Positions 1 through 27,791 of a stretch of 27,791 nt of DNA are shown piece after piece. Under the pieces are notes generated by a model. That model did not search any database. It worked only from the letters and a program-made list of their open reading frames with translations, and was not told where the DNA came from. The position numbers and the translations under genes were made by a program. Each line of letters starts with the position of its first letter. The first letter of the stretch is position 1. The stretch is taken from positions 1 to 27,791 of IMG/VR virus record IMGVR_UViG_3300009620_002209. The stretch is one strand, 5' to 3'. This DNA comes from a virus.

Positions 1-111
1 ATAACCGAACGTTTCGAGCTGCAAAGCGCCGAGCCCGTGGCGATCTTCCTTCAAAACTTCACGACCACGACCACCGCCGAACTGGAACAGGGGATCGAGT
101 TTGGGAAATGA
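1..111 (+). CDS. Partial unknown protein (C-terminal end only)
   Basis: Reading frame 1 is open from the first base to a TGA at 109-111 and encodes the last 36 residues of a protein cut by the window edge. The tail has a run of five threonines followed by an acidic end. No family can be recognised from this fragment. It lies just upstream of the terminase, where a small terminase subunit is common, but nothing in the residues proves that. The next small ORF overlaps its end by 11 bases, which suggests a shared transcript. Confidence 0.5.
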   Translation: MTERFELQSAEPVAIFLQNFTTTTTAELEQGIEFGK

Positions 112-277
112 AGCCGAAAAGCGGCGCCGGGTGCTCGAGGCCGTGATCGCGATCTCCATGGATTCCATGGGCCCCGGGAAGGGCGAAGAGGCCGACGAAA
201 TCGAAGGCCAAGAATTGGAGCATATGGCGATCACTATGTTTGGATGCCCGGCGCCCGACGAAATCGACGACGAATGA
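101..277 (+). CDS. Small acidic hypothetical protein (58 aa)
   Basis: A 58-residue ORF begins at TTG 101, seven bases after an AGGGG Shine-Dalgarno-like run (89-93), and stops at 275-277. It overlaps the upstream gene by 11 bases and the terminase start by the ATGA junction at 274-277. The product has a short basic/helical N-terminus (EAEKRRRVLEAVI) and a strongly acidic C-terminus ending DEIDDE. No family is recognised. An internal ATG at 158 is possible but has no ribosome site. The tight coupling to the terminase argues that it is translated; a packaging accessory role is only a guess from position. Confidence 0.5.
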   Translation: MGNEAEKRRRVLEAVIAISMDSMGPGKGEEADEIEGQELEHMAITMFGCPAPDEIDDE

Positions 278-1674
278 AAACGATCACAAACTGGGCGGAT
301 CTTTGGGGCTTCACGCCATATCCGAAACAAGAGGCTTTTTTGCGAACCCCGAAGAATCGGGCGGCCTTTATCGGAGGATTCGGCTCGGGCAAATCCTGGG
401 CGAATGCGGCCCGGTGCGTGCTCGCGGTTTTGGAGTCGGCGGAATGGTCCCGAAAAAACAGCATGACCGGGATATCCGATGGCATTATCGTCTGCCCAAC
501 ATACGACCTTTGCGTTAATGTCATGTTGCGCGCGTTAGAGGAGATCAACGACGGTATGACGGGGGCGACTGGGCACGGCATAATCTCCCAGGTAAACAAA
601 TCCAAAATGGAAGTGATAACGCACTGGGGCTCGAAGATCCTCCTTCGGAGCGCGACCCGTTGTCAAAATCTCGTCGGGTTGAATCTCGGTTGGGCCGCCA
701 TGGATGAAGTAACCACAATGGCCCGGGAAGAGGAGGTTTTTGATTTGCTCCAGGCCCGCCTACGTTGCCCCAAAATGCCGCCGGGCCGCCGTTCCCTATG
801 GATAAGCACCACCCCCCAAGGGTACACCGGGTGCATAAGACGCCTTGGCGAGCTTCGAAAGGCCGACGAAAGCGCCGTCTGTATGATCCGCGCGGCCTCG
901 CACGATAACCCGCACCTTGATCCCTCGTTTATTGAATCGCTTCGGGCCACCTACTCAAAGGCCCGATGGAAGGCCGAGGTGCTCGGAGAAGTCTCCGCCC
1001 CCACAACGGCTATATTCCCCGAGTTTTCGGCGAAACACGTGATCCCATGGGTCCAACACGAGGGCGATTGGATAGCCGGCGCCGACTGGGGGCTGACGCG
1101 TCACCATTTCCTCGAGATCGACGTGGTGGAACTGGACCCCGGGATCAAAACCTACGTAGTGGTAGGCGAACACTTCACGCCGAACGAGTCGATCGATCGT
1201 CAAAACCGGTGGTGGCACGAGCTGAAGGCCCGCCGCCACAAACACCCGATCGCGGTGGGCATTGACCGGGCCGACAACTGGAAACAGGGCCGGATGGTTC
1301 GCCAGTGGGGATGGCGCACCAAACAAAACGACGATTCGCGCGGGATGGCCGCGAGGGTGCTCCCGGGGGTGGAGCTTATCCGCGATCTCTTAGACCCCGC
1401 CGACGGCGGACCCCCGCGGTTGTATTTATCTGATAAGCTTGTGCGCGAAGGACGCCAGGATCGGTGGTCAATTTTCTATTGTTTGCAGGAATACAAATGG
1501 ATGCTAGCACCTGACGGGATATCGCCGATCGACGCCGTTCAACGTTCTGGGCATGAACATGCGATCGATAGCCTGAGATACGCAATTTTGAGCCAGGAAA
1601 AGTGGCGAACTACCCGTGGATATTACGCTTTAGACACAAAACCGAGGCCTGAGAATGCTCTCCGTATCGTTTGA
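274..1674 (+). CDS. terL: Terminase large subunit (DNA-packaging ATPase/nuclease)
   Basis: The 466-residue product is the motor that pumps DNA through the portal and cuts the concatemer. The N-terminal ATPase shows a Walker A motif GGFGSGKS (residues 34-41), a Walker B AAMDEV (141-146) and a coupling motif STTPQG (178-183). The C-terminal RNase H-fold nuclease shows the expected acidic residues: D271 in AGADWG, D331 in GIDRAD and D432 in HAIDSLRYA. Length is normal for the family. I chose ATG 274, which overlaps the preceding stop as ATGA, rather than the upstream ATG at 244, which would add ten Arg-rich residues and overlap the previous gene more. The portal gene overlaps its end by 20 bases. 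Confidence 0.95.
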   Translation: MKTITNWADLWGFTPYPKQEAFLRTPKNRAAFIGGFGSGKSWANAARCVLAVLESAEWSRKNSMTGISDGIIVCPTYDLCVNVMLRALEEINDGMTGATGHGIISQVNKSKMEVITHWGSKILLRSATRCQNLVGLNLGWAAMDEVTTMAREEEVFDLLQARLRCPKMPPGRRSLWISTTPQGYTGCIRRLGELRKADESAVCMIRAASHDNPHLDPSFIESLRATYSKARWKAEVLGEVSAPTTAIFPEFSAKHVIPWVQHEGDWIAGADWGLTRHHFLEIDVVELDPGIKTYVVVGEHFTPNESIDRQNRWWHELKARRHKHPIAVGIDRADNWKQGRMVRQWGWRTKQNDDSRGMAARVLPGVELIRDLLDPADGGPPRLYLSDKLVREGRQDRWSIFYCLQEYKWMLAPDGISPIDAVQRSGHEHAIDSLRYAILSQEKWRTTRGYYALDTKPRPENALRIV

Positions 1675-3322
1675 AAATCTTGACGAATCCACCTTTGACA
1701 AACAGTCTCGGGATCTCGAGAAATTCCACATGCGGGATTATTCGCCGGCGGTGGCCGCGCTAAAGCAAATGTTCCCGACGAGTTGGAAAAATATACCCCT
1801 CCGATCTTGTCCGTTTGTGTATTCGGTGGCCCGGGAGCTTGGGAGCCTATACAGCACCCCGCCAAGCCGCACCTTCGAGGGCGTGCGAAACCCCGAAACC
1901 GAAACGGCTATCAGGAAATTGTACGCCTCAACGCGAATTGACGAAATCATGAGATCGGCGCAAGAATACCTCGTGATTCAAGGGAGCTGCGGGATCTTGA
2001 TCCTCCCCGACCCTTCGGGCACCCCGGGTCTTTTCTCCCTCCACGTGCTCGCGCCCTGGAGGATAAAGCCGGATCGGCCTTCGCCGCTTATCACTGACGA
2101 GCGGGCGATCAGGCGATGGCGGATCCGCCTCCCGCGAAAGGAAACGGCATATGGCACGATTCAAGAGGACGATCTCGTCCTGACCCCCGAGGCGATCACG
2201 TGGGCCGACGGCACGCCATATTTCGAAACCGCCGAAAACCCGATCGGGCCAAATATCCCCCTTGTGATTTTACGCGCGGCGCCGGCTGGAACTGCCAGCG
2301 GGGGCCGGTTTCTACCTGTCCCAAACGGCGATTTATTGGCGGCACAATTGGCCCTTGTGTGCGGCTACAGTGACCTCGGCGCAATCTGCTCGTCCCAGGC
2401 ATGGGGCCAAAGAATTTTGACGGGTGGCAATATGGAAGCCTCCGAGGTTCAGGTGGGCCCCGATACCGTGCTCGCGCTCGAAGAGGGCCACGACTTCAAA
2501 ATTGTATCAGGCGATTCCGGCTATCAGGGATTTATTGCAAGCCTGGAATCCTATTTGAAATTGGTTTGCAGCCAGAACAAAATTGACGCCTCGGCGCTCC
2601 TGAGTTCCGGGGCATATACAGCCGCTTCTCGCATTGTAGAGCGGGCAGATCGCACCCTGGAAAGGCGGATCCACATCATGGAATGCGAGCGGGCCGAGGG
2701 GCGGATCTTCCGCTTCCTGGCGCGATGGACAAACGCGATCCGCGGGCTCCCGGTTTTCCCGGTGGCCGACATTTCGGTCAAGGTGGAGTATCACGAATTT
2801 ATTCTTCCCTTCGATCCCCTCCACGAATCGCAAGCCTCCCAAATCCGCGCAAGCTCGGGCCTCGAGTCTATCGTGGAACAAATCGCAAAGGAACGCGGGA
2901 TCTCCCAGGATGCCGCCGCGCTCGTGCTCGAAGAGAATCTTGCGGTGCAGCGGAAGATCAAAAACGCCACGAGCGATCAACCCCCGCCCGAGTTTATCCC
3001 CAAAACGATCGCGGTGGACTTCGACGGGGTGCTGAAGCCGGGGGCCTTTGATTCAACCTCTGGGCCCACCCCGGCAACAGTGGCCGCGCTCGAACAATTA
3101 ACGCTGGACGGCTACCGCTTGATCATTGTATCGAGCCGGCCGGTTGACCAGATCAAGCAATGGCTTGCCGATCATGAGATCTCGCACTATTTTGAAGAGG
3201 TAACGAACACGAAAAACCCCGCGCTTTTTTATATCGACGATCGCGCGATCCGATTCCCGGGTGGCGCCGGCGGGTGGGATGGCGTGGTTGATATGATCAA
3301 ACAGGGGAGGGCCTCCGCATAA
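1655..3322 (+). CDS. Portal protein with fused C-terminal HAD phosphatase domain
   Basis: This 555-residue protein directly follows the terminase and starts at ATG 1655, seven bases after GAGG. Residues about 1-440 have the size and position of a siphovirus portal, the dodecameric ring through which DNA enters and leaves. Residues about 449-555 are a separate small HAD-superfamily hydrolase domain: motif I DFDGVL (D455, D457), motif II SSRP (S493/S494), K520 as motif III and YIDDRAIRF as motif IV (D528, D529). This domain normally occurs as a stand-alone phage or bacterial protein of about 110-140 residues. A short polar, Pro-rich linker (about 436-448) joins the two. The portal call rests mainly on position, length and the downstream genes; the HAD call rests on motifs. 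Confidence 0.82.
   Translation: MLSVSFENLDESTFDKQSRDLEKFHMRDYSPAVAALKQMFPTSWKNIPLRSCPFVYSVARELGSLYSTPPSRTFEGVRNPETETAIRKLYASTRIDEIMRSAQEYLVIQGSCGILILPDPSGTPGLFSLHVLAPWRIKPDRPSPLITDERAIRRWRIRLPRKETAYGTIQEDDLVLTPEAITWADGTPYFETAENPIGPNIPLVILRAAPAGTASGGRFLPVPNGDLLAAQLALVCGYSDLGAICSSQAWGQRILTGGNMEASEVQVGPDTVLALEEGHDFKIVSGDSGYQGFIASLESYLKLVCSQNKIDASALLSSGAYTAASRIVERADRTLERRIHIMECERAEGRIFRFLARWTNAIRGLPVFPVADISVKVEYHEFILPFDPLHESQASQIRASSGLESIVEQIAKERGISQDAAALVLEENLAVQRKIKNATSDQPPPEFIPKTIAVDFDGVLKPGAFDSTSGPTPATVAALEQLTLDGYRLIIVSSRPVDQIKQWLADHEISHYFEEVTNTKNPALFYIDDRAIRFPGGAGGWDGVVDMIKQGRASA
2999..3319 (+). other. HAD-superfamily phosphatase domain inside the portal ORF
   Basis: All four HAD motifs are present and in order over about 107 residues, with both aspartates of motif I retained, so the domain looks catalytically competent. 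It resembles the small HAD hydrolases that end in a YIDDRA(I/V)RF block followed by a Trp-containing helix. In solved portals the C-terminus faces the capsid interior, so each portal ring could carry twelve copies facing the packaged DNA. A GTG at 2945, preceded by a purine-rich stretch, could allow separate internal translation of the domain. Confidence 0.85.
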
Positions 3323-3990
3323 TGTCAAAAAAAGGACCTATCGCGCACGTCGAGGTAAAATACGCTGGTGGCCTGACGGCCACCTCTCGGAAAATGTACA
3401 AGCCGCTTTTGAGAATGTTTGCGGCCTACGCTGGAAAAATAAAACACCGAGTTACAAAGATCGGAAAAACGAGCACAGGGGCGGCCTTCGGGAATTATCC
3501 AAAAATAAGAACCCCACTAACAAAGGCGGAGAGAGAAATACGGATCGCCAAAGCGAAAAAAAATATGCAGGGGTTGGCGATATGGACCAGCGTACTCGAC
3601 AATATTAAGGCGAAGCGCGGCGGGCGCCGGCGACAATACCAACGCCGGGGCGGAATGTGGAAAGGGCTAACCGTCAAAGCACAGGCCAGCGGAAAGCGCG
3701 TGACCATGAATTTCCAGCGTAGCTCGCTAGGCCGCGACGGGAAAAAAATACCCAACAAAACAAAAGCGTGGTTTTCAATGATCCACCGGGGCCGGCACGC
3801 CGAAGCCTCGCACCTTTTCCAGCCAACTGATGCGGAATTTGAGGCGTTGAAATTGGCTTATTCGCTTAACGTGGTTCCGGGGATGATAGACGAAATCCAA
3901 GCTAGACAGAAAATGGTTGCAGATATAAAAAAGAAATTTAAGGGCGATCCCAAACTCAAACAGATGATCGCGGCCGTGTTGAAAACGTAA
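3322..3990 (+). CDS. Basic head/virion morphogenesis-like protein
   Basis: The 222-residue product starts at ATG 3322, sharing one base with the portal stop (TAATG). It is very rich in Lys and Arg, with a dense basic patch at about residues 98-110 (RGGRRRQYQRRGG). The segment GGMWKGLTVKA (110-120), followed by a beta-rich stretch and a region ending in LFQPTDAEFEAL (165-176), is reminiscent of small virion-morphogenesis or tail-completion proteins, but the match is by eye and weak. It sits between portal and scaffold, where many phages encode a minor head protein. A structural role in head or connector assembly is the best guess; function is not established. Confidence 0.7.
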   Translation: MSKKGPIAHVEVKYAGGLTATSRKMYKPLLRMFAAYAGKIKHRVTKIGKTSTGAAFGNYPKIRTPLTKAEREIRIAKAKKNMQGLAIWTSVLDNIKAKRGGRRRQYQRRGGMWKGLTVKAQASGKRVTMNFQRSSLGRDGKKIPNKTKAWFSMIHRGRHAEASHLFQPTDAEFEALKLAYSLNVVPGMIDEIQARQKMVADIKKKFKGDPKLKQMIAAVLKT

Positions 3991-3999
3991 GGGGGCACA

Positions 4000-4614
4000 A
4001 TGGATCAAATTCCGAAGGCCGACGCGCCAAGCGCCGAGGCTACACAACAAACGACACCACCGGCGGCGGAGGCTAAACAGCCCGAGCTTGATTTAAAGCC
4101 CTCGGGCCTGGCGCCTACCCCACCAACACCCGAACCCGCACCAACACCCGAACCCGTGGCGCCGGCGGCCCTGGTAACACCCCCCGAGCCCGAGGCGAAA
4201 CCGAAGGCAAAGCCCGCCGCGAAAAAAACGGCGATCGACCCCGCCGAGCTGGAAAAAATCGCGGGGGACTACGCAGAGCTGAAACAATCGCACGACGCGC
4301 TTCAGGCCGCGATAGTCTCCGCCCAAGGCGACCGACGCCTCCAGGTTATCCGCGCGGCGGGGGTTGAGGCCCTAAGCTCTGAAGAAATCATGAAGCTCGC
4401 GCCGACAGTGGACCCCGACACCACCGAGGGCCGCGCCCAGATCAACGCGTGGATCGACGCGCACCCCGGGCTCGTGGCGCCGCGGCTTCGGATGCAAACG
4501 ACACCGGCCAAAGAGATCGCGGCTACGGCTATCGACAACCCCGCGGTCAAAAGCCTCTTCGGGGACGCGGAAACCGTGAGATCACGAATCAAAACATTGA
4601 TGGGAGGAGACTAA
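4000..4614 (+). CDS. Scaffold-like head assembly protein
   Basis: The 204-residue protein starts at ATG 4000 behind a GGGGGCACA ribosome site. Residues 1-75 are Pro/Ala/Glu/Lys-rich low complexity. Residues about 80-110 (DPAELEKIAGDYAELKQSHD) look like a coiled coil, and the C-terminus is helical and charged, ending RSRIKTLMGGD. This composition and its place two genes before the major capsid protein fit a scaffolding protein that lines the procapsid during assembly. No protease motif is visible in this gene or its neighbours, so scaffold removal by a phage protease is not supported. Confidence 0.7.
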   Translation: MDQIPKADAPSAEATQQTTPPAAEAKQPELDLKPSGLAPTPPTPEPAPTPEPVAPAALVTPPEPEAKPKAKPAAKKTAIDPAELEKIAGDYAELKQSHDALQAAIVSAQGDRRLQVIRAAGVEALSSEEIMKLAPTVDPDTTEGRAQINAWIDAHPGLVAPRLRMQTTPAKEIAATAIDNPAVKSLFGDAETVRSRIKTLMGGD

Positions 4615-7440: not shown

Positions 7441-8673
7441 ATGCCCAATTATTCCAGCTCGAAAATCGCCCGCCTATCGGTCAAAAACCAGGCGGCCTGG
7501 GGGACGGCGGATGTAACCTCAATGATCGATCTCGAGTGCGAGGTGCCGAGCTTCGATTTTCCTACCGAGCTTTTGGAAATCGACTCCATTCGATCCGGGT
7601 TTTTCTCGCCTCCACCTATCGCGGGCGCTCGAAGTGGCGGAACGCTATCGTTCAAAATGCGAATGCACGGCTGGAGCACCGCGGGCACAGGGATCGGCGT
7701 AAGCCCGACCGAGCACGCCGATTCCTTGATGCTGAAGTATGCTCTAGGCGCGAACCTTTCCGATAACTATACAACGGAGCTGGGCACGGGCTCCACGACC
7801 ACGAACGTTAAGGTGGGCGATGGGACAACCGCGAGCCTTTCGGCCGGGGGCGGAATTGTTGTACCCTCAACCACGGCGGGCGAATACAAATTGGGCGTGA
7901 TCAAAAGTGGTGACGGCGACCCCGACCCCGAAGAGCTTACCCTTTCCTATCCTTTGGCCGCGGCTGTCGCTTCGTCTGGTACGATTTATGGCACGAACAC
8001 CGTTTATCTATCGACAGGAATCACCCCCTTAACGTTTTTGTGGACCGGCCAAAACGAGGGCGAATATTATACCCTTTCGGATTGCGTCGTGGAGTCGGCC
8101 TCGATTACGTGCAGTCCGGCCGGCCACCTCGAGGTAGACTACTCTGTGAAGGTTGGAAATTGGTCCCAAACCCCCGCCGGGGCCGCCACAACCTCTTACA
8201 CCGTGTCAGATCCTTATCTCCCCGTGGCCGTGGGGCGCTCCGGTGGCTCGCTCGCGACGACTACAGGATCGGTCAATACAGAATTGCCAGTCGGCGATCT
8301 GACCATTACGATCACCAATACATTGATCGAGGCTCGCCAGTTTGCGGCCTCCGAAGGGATCGCCCAGTACATCCTATCCGATCGCGTGGTGGCGCTTTCC
8401 ATGACCATTCCCACGACCGACGCCCTCACCACCTCCGCGTGGGCCGACCTTGTGGGCACCACCGGAGACGCCGTGCGCTATGAGCTTGGGACAACCCCGG
8501 GAAAAATGTTTGGGATGTATATCCCCGCACCGTTCTACAAATCATTGACGGCCGAGGACCAGGGCGGGCTACACGGGCTTTCGGTCGATTTCGGGGTGGG
8601 CACGTATTCGGGTGACACCGCGATCGCCGCCGAGGCCACCGCAAACACCGATTTTCGCGTATATTTTGGGTGA
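7441..8673 (+). CDS. Major tail tube protein
   Basis: The 410-residue product begins at ATG 7441 after a strong AGGAGG site. It is beta-rich with Thr, Ser and Gly, as expected of a protein that polymerises into the tail tube. The outer parts (about 1-100 and 200-410) carry the tube-like pattern. Residues about 100-195 look like an inserted module with GDGTTASLSAGGGIVV, a segment resembling small surface domains in other phage tail proteins. It is followed by the chaperone frameshift pair and tape measure, the canonical order for a tube gene. No sheath gene is present, which supports a non-contractile tail. Confidence 0.8.
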   Translation: MPNYSSSKIARLSVKNQAAWGTADVTSMIDLECEVPSFDFPTELLEIDSIRSGFFSPPPIAGARSGGTLSFKMRMHGWSTAGTGIGVSPTEHADSLMLKYALGANLSDNYTTELGTGSTTTNVKVGDGTTASLSAGGGIVVPSTTAGEYKLGVIKSGDGDPDPEELTLSYPLAAAVASSGTIYGTNTVYLSTGITPLTFLWTGQNEGEYYTLSDCVVESASITCSPAGHLEVDYSVKVGNWSQTPAGAATTSYTVSDPYLPVAVGRSGGSLATTTGSVNTELPVGDLTITITNTLIEARQFAASEGIAQYILSDRVVALSMTIPTTDALTTSAWADLVGTTGDAVRYELGTTPGKMFGMYIPAPFYKSLTAEDQGGLHGLSVDFGVGTYSGDTAIAAEATANTDFRVYFG

Positions 8674-17016: not shown

Positions 17017-17529
17017 GTGCCAAACCAAAACGCCGTCAATGATTCTACCAGTCCATGCTATTACCCCGCGGGGCTTCGAAGCGCCGCCCAGGACGAGCCC
17101 GCCGAGGGGACAAACGTTAAGGTTTTAGCCGCCCACCATAACGAGGTTTTAGCCCGCCAACTCGCGGTTTTTCGCGGGTATCCGGAGGTGCAGGGCATAT
17201 CGATCGGAAAGATCACCACGACCCAGAAATTCGGGCTTTTCATTAGCCCGCCCGGCGCGAAGGGCGTGCTCGTGCATTTCAAAACCGCCGCCGTTTTCAG
17301 CTCAACGGTATTCAACGTCACATATGAGGGCGTCACAAAAACCAAAACGATCGCCACCGACGAGCCGCCCTTTTTGTCGGCTGTAACCGAATTGACCTTC
17401 GGGCCCTGGAATCTCGCCAGCGGTGGGCCCGGCGACGTTACGGGGGACGGGATCGTACAATTCCAGGCGGGGGCGGGATCGGTAACAGTTTTTGATCTTC
17501 GGTATTCTTTCACAATAAACACCACGTAA
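17017..17529 (+). CDS. Small tail-fibre-region protein (170 aa)
   Basis: The start GTG 17017 follows GAGG by seven bases and the previous stop by two. Residues 1-55 contain an adaptor-like helix (KVLAAHHNEVLARQLAVFRG), and residues 60-170 form a beta domain with alternating hydrophobic strands (GVLVHFKTAAVFSSTVFNVTY). A GDVTGDGIV stretch (139-147) is dockerin-like but incomplete. The pattern of a short helical linker plus a beta sandwich fits a small tail-tip or fibre subunit. Function unproven. Confidence 0.68.
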   Translation: MPNQNAVNDSTSPCYYPAGLRSAAQDEPAEGTNVKVLAAHHNEVLARQLAVFRGYPEVQGISIGKITTTQKFGLFISPPGAKGVLVHFKTAAVFSSTVFNVTYEGVTKTKTIATDEPPFLSAVTELTFGPWNLASGGPGDVTGDGIVQFQAGAGSVTVFDLRYSFTINTT

Positions 17530-21637: not shown

Positions 21638-21840
21638 ACACCCCCGAAACGCTCCAGACCTACACCCTGGCCGAGGTATGTGGGATCTTGAAAATCTCTA
21701 CGCGCACGTGTAAAGCTATGCTTTATCAGGGCAAAATTAACGGCTTCAAGGTGGGCAACCAATGGCGCATATCCGACAACGAATTGCGACGACTCCTGGG
21801 CTACACGGGCGCCCGAGGGGCGGAGGATGATCAAACCTGA
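21634..21840 (+). CDS. Helix-turn-helix (excisionase/MerR-like) DNA-binding protein
   Basis: The 68-residue protein has the classic small winged-helix pattern: YTLAEVCGILKISTRTCKAM then a turn and VGNQWRISDNELRRLL, seen in excisionases and phage regulators of the HTH_17 type. It could regulate early genes or bend DNA. Because no integrase is present in the window, an excisionase job is not supported. Its start ATG 21634 overlaps the preceding stop and has GAGGG before it. Confidence 0.82.
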   Translation: MNTPETLQTYTLAEVCGILKISTRTCKAMLYQGKINGFKVGNQWRISDNELRRLLGYTGARGAEDDQT

Positions 21841-22852
21841 CCGCGGGCCCGCCGCGCTGGATCCATACGTGCGCGACTTCGACACCTTCGAGCGCAACGG
21901 CGGGCTCGGCGGGACCGACGCCGCCGCGCTCTTAGGGCTTCACCCGTACAAAACCGCGCTTGGCGTCTACCTCGAAAAAACCGGCGCGGGATCGGACTTC
22001 AAACCCAATTCGGCGATGGAATGGGGTACGCGATCCGAGCCTATGATCGCGGAAAAATACTCGGATCGCATGGGCCTAGAATCCGATGGGCGCGGCCTTT
22101 ACCTCTTCACACCGGGCACCTTGATCCACCCTGACCAGGATTGGGCATATGGTAGCCCGGATCGCATTGTGACCGATTCGGAGGGCCGGTGGTTGTGGGG
22201 CCTGGAGATCAAAACCACCGGGTTTCGCTCAGAGCACCGATGGGGCGAATCGGGATCCAACAAATTCCCGCAAGAATATCTCCTTCAATGCGTCTGGTAT
22301 ATGGCGATCACCCGGGCCCTGGGGCGCCGCGCGGGGTGGGATCCGATCCCTTTCTGGGATCTGGCGGTGCTCATAACCGGCCAGGAATACCGCCAGTACC
22401 GGATCATGCACGATCAGGAGTTGGAAGATATCCTTTTAGGGGAGGGCGCCGAATTCTGGGAATCGTCGATCCTACAGGAAAACCCGCCCGATATTGTCGC
22501 CCGGGATTCGAAGGATCTCCCGCGGCTATGGCCCCGCGACGATGGATATATGATCGAGGCCGACGAAACCCACGATGATCTTGCCCGGGATTTGTTGCAG
22601 CTCAACGGCCAAATCGACGAGCTGGAAGAAAAGCGGGAAGATATCAAAACCGCGCTCAAAATCATGATCGGCGAGGCGGCCGGGATCGAGGGCTCGGGCT
22701 TTCGCTTCACGTGGAAATCACAGAAAGCCGGGAAAAAAGTGGACTATAAGGGCCTCGTTAAGGCGATGAACCCGCCCGCCGACCTTGTGGAATCCTACAC
22801 CTCTTTTCGCAAGCCGGCGCGGCCATTTCTACAGAAATATTACGACAAATAA
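21827..22852 (+). CDS. YqaJ-like viral recombinase/5'-3' exonuclease
   Basis: The 341-residue protein is a lambda-exonuclease-type nuclease that resects double-strand ends for annealing. The N-terminus shows the G-GT-D-A-A-LG pattern (LGGTDAAALLGLHPYKT), E71 in GTRSEPMIAEKY, then the catalytic triad D112 in SPDRIV and E127-x-K129 in GLEIKTTG. The C-terminal third (about 250-290) is a coiled coil, as in YqaJ proteins longer than lambda exonuclease. ATG 21827 follows GAGGGG by six bases. It stands directly upstream of the RecT gene, the usual recombination pair. Confidence 0.9.
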   Translation: MIKPDRGPAALDPYVRDFDTFERNGGLGGTDAAALLGLHPYKTALGVYLEKTGAGSDFKPNSAMEWGTRSEPMIAEKYSDRMGLESDGRGLYLFTPGTLIHPDQDWAYGSPDRIVTDSEGRWLWGLEIKTTGFRSEHRWGESGSNKFPQEYLLQCVWYMAITRALGRRAGWDPIPFWDLAVLITGQEYRQYRIMHDQELEDILLGEGAEFWESSILQENPPDIVARDSKDLPRLWPRDDGYMIEADETHDDLARDLLQLNGQIDELEEKREDIKTALKIMIGEAAGIEGSGFRFTWKSQKAGKKVDYKGLVKAMNPPADLVESYTSFRKPARPFLQKYYDK

Positions 22853-22863
22853 ACGGGGGCAAT

Positions 22864-23850
22864 ATGAGCGATTTGATTCAATACCTATCCGGGCGACAAA
22901 CCGCTATCGCGGCGGGCTGCAATCTCACGAAGAGGCTAACGGCCCGGCAAATGATCCAGGCCGCGTCAATAGCGATCCACAACACGCCGGCGCTGGCCAA
23001 GTGCACCCGCGAAAGCATATTCGAAAGCGTGCTCTCCGCCGCGCGTATGGGGCTGGATTGCTCGGGGCTCCACGGGCACGGCTACCTGATAGCATACGGG
23101 CGAAAATGCACGTTTATTCCAGGATGGCGCGGCCTGGTATCCATCGCCCGCCGAGCTTCCGGCGTGCAGGATCTCAAAGCGAACGTTATCCACGAGCGGG
23201 ATGATTGGGAATACCGCGAGGGCCTCGAGCCTGACCTAGTGCACAAACCGTGCTTATTGACCGACCGCGGGCCCGTGATCGCGGCCTATGCGGTGGCATA
23301 CCTGGACACGGGCCGGGTTCATTTCGAGGTGGTGGGCAAGGCGGAGATCGACGCTATCGCCAAAGATTCCCGATCTGATAGTTGGAAAAACCACTACGCC
23401 GCTATGGCCCGAAAAACCGCCGTTCGGCGCCTGTGCAATAACCTCCCGCGCTCCCTGGAGCTTGACGACGCCCTCGACATTGAAAACGCCGCGGAGGGTG
23501 ATCGCGAAAACTCCGCCGAGCTTCGGATGATGCCGCCGGAAGAAATGTTCCTGGGCGAGCGGGAAAACACCGCCGACGAGGTGAAAAAGCAGATCAGCAA
23601 ACGGAAGCCCCGGGCCCCCAGGAAGCCGCGGAAGCGAGCTGAGGCGCCGCCCGAGCCGCGTGGGAAGCTGAAAAAGATCGACAAGGTGGAGGTTTTGCGC
23701 CACCAAATCGAAGATTTCCCCGAACAGTTCGCCGATCAAAAGCCGCGCCTTGCGGCCATGGAGGCGGAAAAGGCCGACGCCGTGATCCTGGGCGCGAACC
23801 CCTCCGCCATCCCGGCGGCGGACTTCACCGACGAGGAGATCCCGTTTTGA
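22864..23850 (+). CDS. RecT-family single-strand annealing protein with SSB-like C-terminal tip
   Basis: The 328-residue protein matches the RecT core: RMGLDCSG (61-68), FIPGWRGLVSIARRASGV (84-101), NVIHERDDWEYREG (107-120) and YAAMARKTAVRRL (178-190). It binds ssDNA and anneals complementary strands made by the exonuclease. After residue 240 there is a basic linker (KRKPRAPRKPRKRAE), a helical part, and the last ten residues ADFTDEEIPF, close to the conserved acidic tip of bacterial SSB (DF, D/E, then IPF). ATG 22864 follows GGGGGCAAT. No separate SSB gene is visible in the window. Confidence 0.9.
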   Translation: MSDLIQYLSGRQTAIAAGCNLTKRLTARQMIQAASIAIHNTPALAKCTRESIFESVLSAARMGLDCSGLHGHGYLIAYGRKCTFIPGWRGLVSIARRASGVQDLKANVIHERDDWEYREGLEPDLVHKPCLLTDRGPVIAAYAVAYLDTGRVHFEVVGKAEIDAIAKDSRSDSWKNHYAAMARKTAVRRLCNNLPRSLELDDALDIENAAEGDRENSAELRMMPPEEMFLGERENTADEVKKQISKRKPRAPRKPRKRAEAPPEPRGKLKKIDKVEVLRHQIEDFPEQFADQKPRLAAMEAEKADAVILGANPSAIPAADFTDEEIPF

Positions 23851-24092
23851 ATATATACCTCGAAAACGCCCCCAAATCCGATTCTTTCACGTGGCGCCAT
23901 GCCCGATATAGATACGATCAAAACGGGATCTGGCACCCCACCCTGTCCGCCGTTCGAACTGGTTTCCTTTACGTGATCAACGGACAAGAGGTTTTCGAAT
24001 ACGTGGCCCTCTCTAATATCCCGTGGGTCGATTGGCGCGGCGCCTGGGGTGTTGTACGCGAAAAAACACAGGGCTTTAGGTGGTTCGAATGA
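23847..24092 (+). CDS. Small hypothetical protein (81 aa)
   Basis: TTG 23847 overlaps the RecT stop (TTGA), with GAGGAG eight bases upstream. The 81-residue protein is rich in aromatic residues (WHPTLSAVRTGFLYV, then WVDWRGAW) and probably a small beta fold. It is flanked by recombination and muralytic genes and overlaps the next ORF by ATGA. No family recognised. Confidence 0.6.
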   Translation: MNIYLENAPKSDSFTWRHARYRYDQNGIWHPTLSAVRTGFLYVINGQEVFEYVALSNIPWVDWRGAWGVVREKTQGFRWFE

Positions 24093-24484
24093 GGCTTACA
24101 GATAACTTTAATTTGGATGAATTCGAGCGCGCAAATCGGAAGGTGCCGCCGGAACTCCTGCCAAACATTCAAAGATTGGCCGAGAATCTTCAACGGCTCC
24201 GCGAGCGATTGGGCCGCCCGATCCGCATACATTCGGGATTCCGAACACCGGACACCAACACAGGCGCGAAAAAGTCTCAACACCTCCTGGGAAAGGCGGC
24301 TGATGTTATGGTGGGCGGAATGAGGCCCGAAGAGGTGCACGCCGTGATCCTAGATATGATCAAAGAGGGCACAATGGATCCCGGCGGCGTGGGCCTATAC
24401 CGCGATGGCGTGGGGCGCCGCGTTGGGTTTGTCCATTACGATATCAGGGGCCGGAATGCCCGATGGGGTGGCCGCAAGAAATGA
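24089..24484 (+). CDS. M15-family peptidase (endolysin-type)
   Basis: The 131-residue protein shows the Peptidase M15 zinc site: SGFRTPDTN (49-57), SQHLLGKAADV (63-73) supplying H65 and D72, and FVHYDIRG (114-121) supplying H116. Such enzymes cleave peptide bonds in peptidoglycan stem peptides. No signal peptide is visible, so it would need a holin for access. ATG 24089 overlaps the preceding stop. It is small for an endolysin but within range of single-domain members. It lies in the replication operon, next to a transglycosylase. Confidence 0.86.
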   Translation: MRLTDNFNLDEFERANRKVPPELLPNIQRLAENLQRLRERLGRPIRIHSGFRTPDTNTGAKKSQHLLGKAADVMVGGMRPEEVHAVILDMIKEGTMDPGGVGLYRDGVGRRVGFVHYDIRGRNARWGGRKK

Positions 24485-24879
24485 TCCTGTTATGCTCTGT
24501 TCTTTTGTTCATGCCGCATAAGGGCACGCACGCCGAAGCAATGGCCGTTTGTATTGAGATCGCCCAGGCCGCCGAAGCCGCCGACGAAGATCCCGCGCTC
24601 CTGATATCGCTTGCATACGTGGAATCCAGGCTACACCGCACCGCGGTTTCCAAAGTTGGGGCCGTTGGACCGCTCCAGGTTATGCCGCGCTTTTGGCCTG
24701 GCGACCCGGTGTTAGCCGGAATAAAAGCATGGAAATACTGGACCGGCCGCACGAATTCGGTTAGGCATGGAATAGCAGCATACAACGCCGGAAAGCGCGC
24801 TGGGCCGCGAGCTTACCGACACGCCGATCGAGTGCTGCAATTAGCCGAAAAAATCAGGGGGTGGGCAAGTGGTAGTTGA
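24481..24879 (+). CDS. Lytic transglycosylase (SLT domain) with signal-like N-terminus
   Basis: The 132-residue protein has a catalytic Glu48 in AYVESRLHRTAVSKVG, followed by GPLQVMP (63-69) and AAYNAGK (99-105), the three hallmarks of SLT-type transglycosylases that cleave glycan strands. The first 18 residues (MILLCSVLLFMPHKGTHA) form a signal-like hydrophobic leader. ATG 24481 overlaps the M15 stop. The pair may act together on peptidoglycan, but they are not next to the holin-like genes. Confidence 0.86.
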   Translation: MILLCSVLLFMPHKGTHAEAMAVCIEIAQAAEAADEDPALLISLAYVESRLHRTAVSKVGAVGPLQVMPRFWPGDPVLAGIKAWKYWTGRTNSVRHGIAAYNAGKRAGPRAYRHADRVLQLAEKIRGWASGS

Positions 24880-25882
24880 TATCCCGGATCAGTGGATAAC
24901 CGATCCACCTTCGCCGAGCGCGTGGCGTGTTTGGGCCGTCGTGGCCTCTTCGCCCGAGCAGCTCCCGATCCGACAGATCGCACACCGCGCCAGGATGGAC
25001 CGACGCACAGTATCAAGGGCGCTCCTGGAGCTTCACAAATCACAAGCGCCGATCACCTACGTTTCGGGCTACGGGAACGCCGCGAGCACCTACACGATCC
25101 ACGGGGGGAGTGGATCAAACTCTCCACGGGGGGAGGGGATCGAACCGTCCATACCTATCGCCAACGATTCCGCGCACTTCCACGGGGGAGGGGATCAACC
25201 CGTACACTCCCTGGAGCACGATCAGGCCGCAGAGCCCGCCACCTCGCGCCCGCGTGGACCCGCGCGCGCAGTGGTTAACAACCTCAATTCCATACAGAGA
25301 GTTAAGAACAAACAATTAACGTTAATAGATCCCTCGGAATTAGATCATGATACGAAAGGGGGGGTGCAGGGGGGGAATCGGCGCGTGCCATTTCGCAAGA
25401 TTCTGGCGGCCTATGATGAAACGATCCGGGGCCGGTATGAATGGCTTGCATACGTTGACCGCGGAGCACAGGCGCCGAAGTGGATCGAGGGCGGCACAAG
25501 CGGGAAAAGCCTGGCCGATTCAAAACTTGGCAAGCGGATCGCCTCCGCCTGGAAACGCAACCCGGATCTTTCGTGGTTTGTTTCGTGGTTCGAGCGTAGC
25601 CTTTCGGAGTGCTTAGAGATCGCACCGTGGGCCCGGGGCGAAGGCGGGGGCGACTTCCAAGCGTCGCTTTATTGGATACTGGGCCGAAACTTCCGAGGGT
25701 GGATGAAGGCGGGACGGTGGATAAACGAAGAGGCAGAGCGGGCAAAGCGGGAGGAGGATATCCGCGCACGAACACCGCAAAGAGGGCGCGAGGTTACGGG
25801 CACGACCTTTATCCCTGAGGATAAAACGATTATAGATTTACAGCCACAAGGGGGCATACAATGGCAACTCCAGACGCATTAA
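24869..25882 (+). CDS. Replication initiator-like winged-helix protein
   Basis: The 337-residue protein starts at GTG 24869 after GGGGG and overlaps the previous gene by 11 bases. Residues about 30-57 (IRQIAHRARMDRRTVSRALL) are a winged helix. Residues 75-165 are low complexity and coincide with three DNA iterons and an AT-rich segment, as in lambda O, whose origin lies inside its gene. The C-terminal 170 residues contain KWIEGG, WFVSWFERSLSECLE and YWILGRNFRGWM, resembling phage replication proteins. The next gene is a loader-like protein, which fits an initiator/loader pair. The C-terminal family is not identified with certainty. Confidence 0.8.
   Translation: MVVDIPDQWITDPPSPSAWRVWAVVASSPEQLPIRQIAHRARMDRRTVSRALLELHKSQAPITYVSGYGNAASTYTIHGGSGSNSPRGEGIEPSIPIANDSAHFHGGGDQPVHSLEHDQAAEPATSRPRGPARAVVNNLNSIQRVKNKQLTLIDPSELDHDTKGGVQGGNRRVPFRKILAAYDETIRGRYEWLAYVDRGAQAPKWIEGGTSGKSLADSKLGKRIASAWKRNPDLSWFVSWFERSLSECLEIAPWARGEGGGDFQASLYWILGRNFRGWMKAGRWINEEAERAKREEDIRARTPQRGREVTGTTFIPEDKTIIDLQPQGGIQWQLQTH
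25098..25200 (+). repeat. Three iterons inside the initiator gene
   Basis: Three copies share TCCAC, then five or six G, then AG(T/G)GGATC followed by an A-rich AAC(C) end, at 25098-25120, 25123-25146 and 25179-25200. They are read in three different frames (residues IHGGSGSN, SPRGEGIEP, FHGGGDQP), so conservation is at the DNA level. Confidence 0.78.
25098..25358 (+). other. Predicted replication origin (iterons plus AT-rich unwinding region)
   Basis: The iterons are followed by an AT-rich stretch 25271-25358, where about 57 of 88 bases are A or T against a GC-rich background. It contains the 12-base palindrome ATTAACGTTAAT (25315-25326) and a GTTAAC at 25274-25279. This order, iterons then an easily melted segment inside the initiator gene, is the lambdoid type of origin. 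Activity is inferred. Confidence 0.68.
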
Positions 25883-26451
25883 GGGCAGCACTCCAAACGC
25901 TTATCGACAACGGAAACAGGATTCCAGACGGCACCACGGCCGCACGAATCGGCGAGCACTGGGCCCGCTACTTCGAAGAGGTATCAGACAACGACCTGGA
26001 GGAAGCGATCCACAGGGTGATCCTCACGCGATGGGCCAACACGTGGCCGACCATTGGCGCCGTGCTCAACCAACTACCGCGCAACCAAAACCTGAAACGC
26101 CTAGCCGCCCTGGATGATGCCGACGAAATATTCGGCCAGGTACTCGAGCTTGTGGGCAAGCGCGGGCATATGCGACCACCCCAAGCGCACGAATACGACG
26201 ACGACGCCGCGCGCTCCCGGGCTATCGCGGCGGGTGTCAGGGCCGCCGGTGGTTGGAAAGCCCTCTGCATGCAAACAGAATTTACACAAGCCGCAAACCG
26301 CGCCGCCTTCCGCGCGGCCTACAAATCCAACCGCGAGAAATCCGAGATCCTCGGCGACTGGAACCCTTCGCGCACACTCGAAAACCTGGGATCAAATGGC
26401 GAGCCCGTATCCATAGCAGGGATCCTCGAGCACTTGGAGATCGGGCGTTGA
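25861..26451 (+). CDS. Helicase-loader-like replication protein
   Basis: The 196-residue protein starts at ATG 25861 after GGGGGCATACA and overlaps the initiator by 22 bases. Residues about 30-75 (RIGEHWARYFEEVSDNDLEE, then TWPTIGAVLNQL) match the helical pattern of phage helicase loaders such as SPP1 G39P, while the C-terminal half is Ala-rich and helical. It would deliver the host or phage helicase to the origin bound by the initiator. No AAA+ ATPase motif is present, so it is the small, non-DnaC type. Identity is by pattern and by its place after the initiator. Confidence 0.72.
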   Translation: MATPDALRAALQTLIDNGNRIPDGTTAARIGEHWARYFEEVSDNDLEEAIHRVILTRWANTWPTIGAVLNQLPRNQNLKRLAALDDADEIFGQVLELVGKRGHMRPPQAHEYDDDAARSRAIAAGVRAAGGWKALCMQTEFTQAANRAAFRAAYKSNREKSEILGDWNPSRTLENLGSNGEPVSIAGILEHLEIGR

Positions 26452-26912
26452 CCTACGAGATCAAATGCACGATCCCCGTTACGCCGCAACCGAAGCGCCG
26501 AGTGCGGGCCGCGTCCCATGGCGGGCGCGTTGTCACCTACAAGGACCGATCAACGAAGCTATTCGAACGAAGCGTGGCGCTATACCTTCGCCAATATGCG
26601 CCGCTACAACCCTTAGAGGGCCCGGTGAGGTTTCGGATTGATTTTATCCACCCACGACCCCGCCGACTACTACAACGCACCAAATCCGGCCAACCCGTGG
26701 CGCCTGGGCTACACTGGAAACCCACAACACCGGATCTCTCGAACCTATGCAAGGCGATCGAGGACGCCGCACAGGTAGCCGGAATCATCCACAACGATTC
26801 ACAGATCGCCGAGTTACACGCGCTTGACTTCTACTCGGAGCGCGACCAGGAACCCCGGATCGTGCTCACGATTTCCGAATTGCCGGAGTGGGGGGGTGCG
26901 CGTGAAGATTAG
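26448..26912 (+). CDS. RusA-family Holliday junction resolvase
   Basis: The 154-residue protein starts at TTG 26448, which overlaps the previous stop (TTGA), with GGAG eight bases upstream. The RusA signature is present as TTPDLSNLCKAIEDA (93-107), followed by IIHNDSQIAEL (113-123): D96, K102, D106 and D117 fit the active-site pattern. The second acidic residue of the PDxDN motif is Ser98 here, so activity may differ. Together with exonuclease and RecT it completes a recombination set that resolves branched DNA before packaging. A longer upstream frame from 26253 overlaps the loader gene and is unlikely. Confidence 0.82.
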   Translation: MTYEIKCTIPVTPQPKRRVRAASHGGRVVTYKDRSTKLFERSVALYLRQYAPLQPLEGPVRFRIDFIHPRPRRLLQRTKSGQPVAPGLHWKPTTPDLSNLCKAIEDAAQVAGIIHNDSQIAELHALDFYSERDQEPRIVLTISELPEWGGARED

Positions 26913-27677: not shown

Positions 27678-27791
27678 GGGAAAGAGCGGCACAGCTAATG
27701 TGTCATTGTGTCAGGGCCAGGGCGGCGCCGGGAGCGTGGATCCGCCTGTTAACAGGCCAAAACGCCCCCCCACCCCTAAAGGAGTGACAGA
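27678..27791 (+). promoter_or_regulatory. Regulatory-looking spacer and ribosome site of the next gene
   Basis: This 114-base stretch has no ORF. It contains a tandem octamer (TGTGTCAT then TGTGTCAG, 27699-27714), a 14-base perfect palindrome GCCTGTTAACAGGC (27744-27757), a C-rich run, and AAAGGAG at 27778-27784, probably the Shine-Dalgarno of a gene that starts at or beyond the window end. No clear -35/-10 pair was found. Confidence 0.5.

Follow-up and report, generated by a model that had tools for sequence, protein, structure and literature searches.

Several bacteriophages initiate replication from origins embedded in their own initiator genes. The annotated iterons of lambda lie within O and the annotated origin of P22 lies within gene 18. 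The layout of lambdoid origins has been described (PMC7466680) and agrees with the one reported here. In SPP1, oriL is located inside gene 38 and comprises direct repeats and an unwinding element, and the helicase loader gp39 is required for initiation (PMC6316719). By analogy with these phages, a region carrying three G-rich repeats in an early gene of the virus record studied here is quite likely to be an intragenic origin with iterons, of the type found in lambda, P22 and SPP1. The arrangement is already known from lambdoid and SPP1 origins, and the locus probably represents a new example of it rather than a new mechanism.

Gene context of the candidate origin

The window, that is, the whole stretch of DNA analysed, is a complete IMG/VR virus record of 27,791 bp with roughly 58% GC, possibly a genome fragment. 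The open reading frame list and PHROG/Pfam profile searches identified terminase, structural, lysis, RecE, RecT and RusA genes in the record. The genes around the candidate origin are as follows.

21827-22852: RecE/YqaJ-like exonuclease, in the same early module as RecT (PHROG/Pfam profile searches)
22864-23850, + strand: RecT-like annealing protein, same early module (PHROG/Pfam profile searches)
24869-25882, + strand: probable gene for the replication initiator, 337 aa, starting with GTG (open reading frame list)
25861-26451, + strand: gene in the helicase-loader position, 196 aa, sharing 22 bp with the initiator gene
26448-26912, + strand: RusA-like Holliday junction resolvase (PHROG 140, E 1e-33; Pfam RusA, E 2e-20)

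The candidate initiator gene is flanked by the RecE, RecT and RusA genes. The 196-aa protein encoded next to it matched two PHROGs without assigned function, both weakly, and nothing else; it is the position of its gene, compared with those of lambda P and SPP1 gp39, that suggests a putative helicase loader. Two overlapping genes for cell-wall enzymes, an M15 peptidase and an SLT transglycosylase (24092-24879), lie directly upstream of the initiator gene, and the pair sits within the replication and recombination module.

Packaging sites may lie within genes and carry repeats, and G-rich repeats inside a gene could accordingly mark a site of another kind, for packaging (pac/cos) or recombination for instance. 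The location of the repeats makes this very improbable: the large terminase gene (244-1674) is far away, at the opposite end of the record, and the gene that hosts the repeats sits among RecE, RecT, RusA and other early genes.

The repeats and the AT-rich stretch

The elements of the candidate origin within the initiator gene are as follows.

25096-25120, + strand: iteron 1, GATCCACGGGGGGAGTGGATC AAAC, with the core copy TCCACGGGGGGAGTGGATCAAAC at 25098-25120
25122-25145, + strand: iteron 2, CTCCACGGGGGGAGGGGATCGAAC, with the core copy TCCACGGGGGGAGGGGATCGAAC at 25123-25145
25178-25200, + strand: iteron 3, TTCCACGGGGGAGGGGATCAACC, reading TCCACGGGGG-AGGGGATCAACC from 25179, with one G fewer
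25273-25357, strand not applicable: AT-rich probable DNA unwinding element, 34% GC, stability minimum of the window
25315-25326, strand not applicable: palindrome of 12 bp, ATTAACGTTAAT, located in the AT-rich stretch
25358-25375, + strand: G-quadruplex motif GGGGGGGTGCAGGGGGGG, the only canonical one in the window, abutting the AT-rich stretch on the right

The initial annotation had placed three near-identical G-rich repeats here in different reading frames, and this proved accurate. The copies are offset by 25, 55–56 and 80 bp; since the main offsets are not multiples of three, they are translated in different frames and yield different peptides. The sequence common to the copies reaches beyond the G-run, to TCCAC on the left and GGATCRAAC on the right. 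The pattern common to iterons 1 and 2 has no further site in the window when up to three mismatches are allowed, and just one direct repeat elsewhere in the window is stronger, an in-frame tandem repeat of 18 nt in coding sequence at 4121.

The annotation had also held that these repeats do not result from protein coding. Codons were permuted within the gene (24869-25882) in 1000 trials that preserved both the protein and the codon usage. The observed repeats score 17 for the best pair and 43 for the sum of the top three, compared with maxima of 15 and 34 in the shuffles, none of which matched the observed score (0/1000). A coding by-product would be a glycine-rich linker written in GGG codons within a GC-rich gene, with no function at the DNA level. 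The linker is indeed of low complexity, and GGG accounts for 10 of its 13 glycine codons versus 6 of 19 elsewhere in the gene. However, the copies differ in reading frame and in the peptides they specify, their common sequence includes the non-G flanks, and synonymous shuffling never yields such repeats, so that we give this explanation hardly any credence.

All three repeats are inverted repeats. Iteron 1 is a perfect hyphenated palindrome, GATCCAC-GGGGGGA-GTGGATC, with 7-bp arms and a 7-nt spacer, and iterons 2 and 3 are imperfect ones in which TCC-AC/GG-GGA is retained with one mismatch. The dyad of iteron 1 had been overlooked in the initial annotation. Iteron 1 starts at about codon 77, directly past the recognition helix and the wing (second strand) predicted by a low-confidence model. 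The small number of iterons, only three, and the 55–56-bp gap between the second and the third count against an origin.

The AT-rich stretch begins about 70 bp downstream of the repeats. It is the lowest-GC 85-bp window across the 27.8 kb, and the least stable 60- and 100-bp windows of the record, calculated from nearest-neighbour energies, fall at the same place (25269-25368). Both the amino acids encoded and the codons used for them contribute to its low GC content (GC3 of 43% versus 64% in the gene), and 13 of the 1000 synonymous permutations reached the minimum. The sequence of 25273-25357 is that of a probable DNA unwinding element. The 12-base palindrome noted earlier in this stretch is as real as the stretch itself, but it is no commoner than chance: the window contains seven palindromes of at least 12 bp where about 11 are expected, and ATTAACGTTAAT by itself therefore carries no weight. 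The G-quadruplex motif at the border of the AT-rich stretch had escaped the first reading. About three canonical motifs are expected in shuffles and one is found in the window, so the presence of GGGGGGGTGCAGGGGGGG is unremarkable and only its position is notable.

Cumulative GC skew, which had been proposed as a check, has its maximum near 25800 and its minimum near 8436 of the record. A maximum is the reverse of the classical bidirectional origin signal and lends no support to an origin; with the main genes on one strand, skew says little in this phage. No DnaA box was found near the repeats. The best other site for a fourth iteron or a second origin, the weakly iteron-like CGTTACGGGGGACGGGATCGTAC at 17436-17458 in the late region, has a score that was reached in 38 of 200 shuffles and is thus probably due to chance.

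In the collections searched (IMG/VR protein and pattern scans and a genome collection), no relative covering the repeats was found. The IMG/VR protein scans, with the initiator, the 196-aa protein, RecT, TerL, RusA and RecE as queries, yielded one near-identical fragment (IMGVR_UViG_3300009418_003956), which ends short of the iterons; the other matches were to distant RecT or RusA loci that lack an O-like gene. The genome collection searched with the initiator returned nothing, and in 388 genomes from one arbitrarily chosen phylum the only matches were due to chance, for example antisense to a recD-like gene. The iteron sequence had been called unfamiliar; the strict iteron pattern has no match elsewhere in IMG/VR. 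A loose pattern for iteron pairs matched nine stretches there, nearly all of them coding tandem repeats, and one intergenic look-alike was judged to be a chance match.

IMGVR_UViG_3300009418_003956, the only close relative, is a perfect palindrome of 4206 bp (1-4206), whose turning point coincides with the centre of a 14-bp palindrome of the window, GCCTGTTAACAGGC (27744-27757). It is probably an amplification or assembly chimera; a hairpin end is a possible alternative. Over the ∼2.1 kb to the turn, all 24 differences from the window lie within 25771-25968 (∼200 bp), and both sides of this segment are identical, a pattern as after local recombination. The 196-aa protein is 100% identical between the two despite the clustered differences.

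The candidate initiator and a proposed opening mechanism

The product of 24869-25882 is predicted to be arranged as follows.

Residues ∼15-78: N-terminal winged helix-turn-helix
Between the two domains: linker
Residues ∼165-290: C-terminal domain

Residues 16-80 gave winged-helix profile matches that are weak and below the cut-off (HTH_IclR, E 0.006; HTH_11, E 0.009; also MarR_2), and the PHROG annotated 'replication initiation O-like' matched this part with an E-value of 0.46. No significant match to the protein was obtained in PHROGs, Pfam, NCBIfam, PDB sequences or the phage and plasmid collections, and comparison with the lambda O/P22 gp18 family revealed no significant similarity (BLASTP E 0.45 and 0.075; hhalign probability <1%). 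Two fold models of the initiator, with pLDDT of 40 and 46, were both unusable; in the single-sequence model, the one with a pLDDT of 46, the N-terminal part has a helix followed by two strands, which is winged-helix-like. The C-terminus and the P22-type O proteins have two collinear motifs in common, one around FRKILAAYDE and the other around APWARGEGGGDFQASLYWIL. Their E-values are not significant, and the collinear score was beaten by 79 of 5000 shuffles (better than 98.4%), so that the resemblance to the P22-type domain is suggestive only. The description of the host gene as initiator-like therefore holds as far as the weak winged-helix and P22-type C-terminal matches go, but not at the level of a significant family match. 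The product is probably a replication initiator.

The N-terminus resembles IclR, MarR and HTH_11 regulators as much as any initiator, and dyad symmetry is typical of operators. The repeats could thus be operators: a winged-helix regulator would bind them within the gene that encodes it, repressing or modulating the early operon. Such sites would lie ∼230–330 bp inside the gene, however, and a scan for promoters of the sigma-70 type found none near the repeats; the stability minimum of the window comes after the repeats, and the layout agrees with that of known origins in O-like genes. We consider operators unlikely on these grounds.

The intragenic origin proposed in the initial annotation is supported by analogy with O-like genes. 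All elements of the lambda type that are visible in sequence occur in the right order. Out-of-frame iterons with a dyad lie in the linker-coding part and are followed by the stability minimum and then by a short early gene. We infer that the N-terminal winged-helix domain of the 24869-25882 product would bind the three iterons, probably as dimers, with each iteron serving as a two-armed site of ∼19–21 bp. The complex of initiator and iterons would strain the DNA such that the AT-rich stretch at 25273-25357 melts open. The C-terminal domain of the initiator and the product of 25861-26451 might then recruit a DnaB-type helicase. In a variant of this scheme, the G-run cores of the iterons and the G-quadruplex bordering the AT-rich stretch would take part in opening, the folded G-rich strand holding the melt open or marking the edge of unwinding; we regard this variant as quite improbable.

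The locus adds a probable origin, with iterons whose sequence is found nowhere else in IMG/VR, from a lineage of phages of which hardly any relatives have been sequenced. The intragenic layout of lambda and SPP1 appears to be recognisable even where the initiator has diverged beyond recognition. Out-of-frame repeats combined with a stability minimum could serve as a test to locate origins in other unannotated phages.

Comparison with described intragenic origins

The same script for repeats and AT minima was applied to nine O-like genes. Significant repeats were detected in lambda, P22, HK97, Providencia phage PSTCR7lys, MagusPhagus and mEp013, most of them out of frame and at offsets of 20–24 bp. 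The O-like gene of Aaphi23 has a weaker repeat pair at 23 bp, the repeats of BUCT709 are in frame and explicable by the protein sequence, and those of Pmp14 are not significant. Most of the nine genes have repeats at offsets of 20–25 bp, placed past the DNA-binding domain, and in seven an AT-rich minimum lies downstream of the repeats. By the script's score, the out-of-frame repeats described here equal or exceed those of most of the compared genes. The order of elements had been said to mirror lambda gene O, and the script does find the same layout in lambda O, P22 gene 18 and HK97 O.

The locus resembles lambda in that the iterons lie in the initiator gene just past the winged-helix part, each as an inverted repeat of ∼19 bp, with an AT-rich stretch downstream and an overlapping next gene. 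Iteron 1 and the lambda iteron both conform to ATCC-N11-GGAT over 19 bp; the arms being symmetric, this amounts to sharing about four independent bases and may be a coincidence. Lambda differs in having four iterons rather than three, spaced 20–24 bp apart in contrast to 25 and 55–56 bp here. The G-run core is a distinction of the present repeats, and the two proteins have no detectable sequence similarity.

As in P22 and HK97, where repeats at 20–24-bp offsets are mostly out of frame, the repeats are followed by an AT-rich minimum. In P22, as here, a G-run after this minimum encodes the Lys-Gly-Gly with which the C-terminal part starts. P22 also has C- and G-runs just past the AT-rich region, comparable to GGGGGGGTGCAGGGGGGG. 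The iteron sequence differs from those of P22 and HK97, whose next gene encodes a DnaB-type helicase in place of the 196-aa protein, and the C-terminal match of the initiator to P22 is only weak. SPP1 has a second origin, oriR, whereas no second credible site is present in the window; the two share, by the published description, an initiator gene that contains direct repeats as well as an unwinding element, and a small loader protein (PMC6316719), here the putative one encoded next to the initiator.
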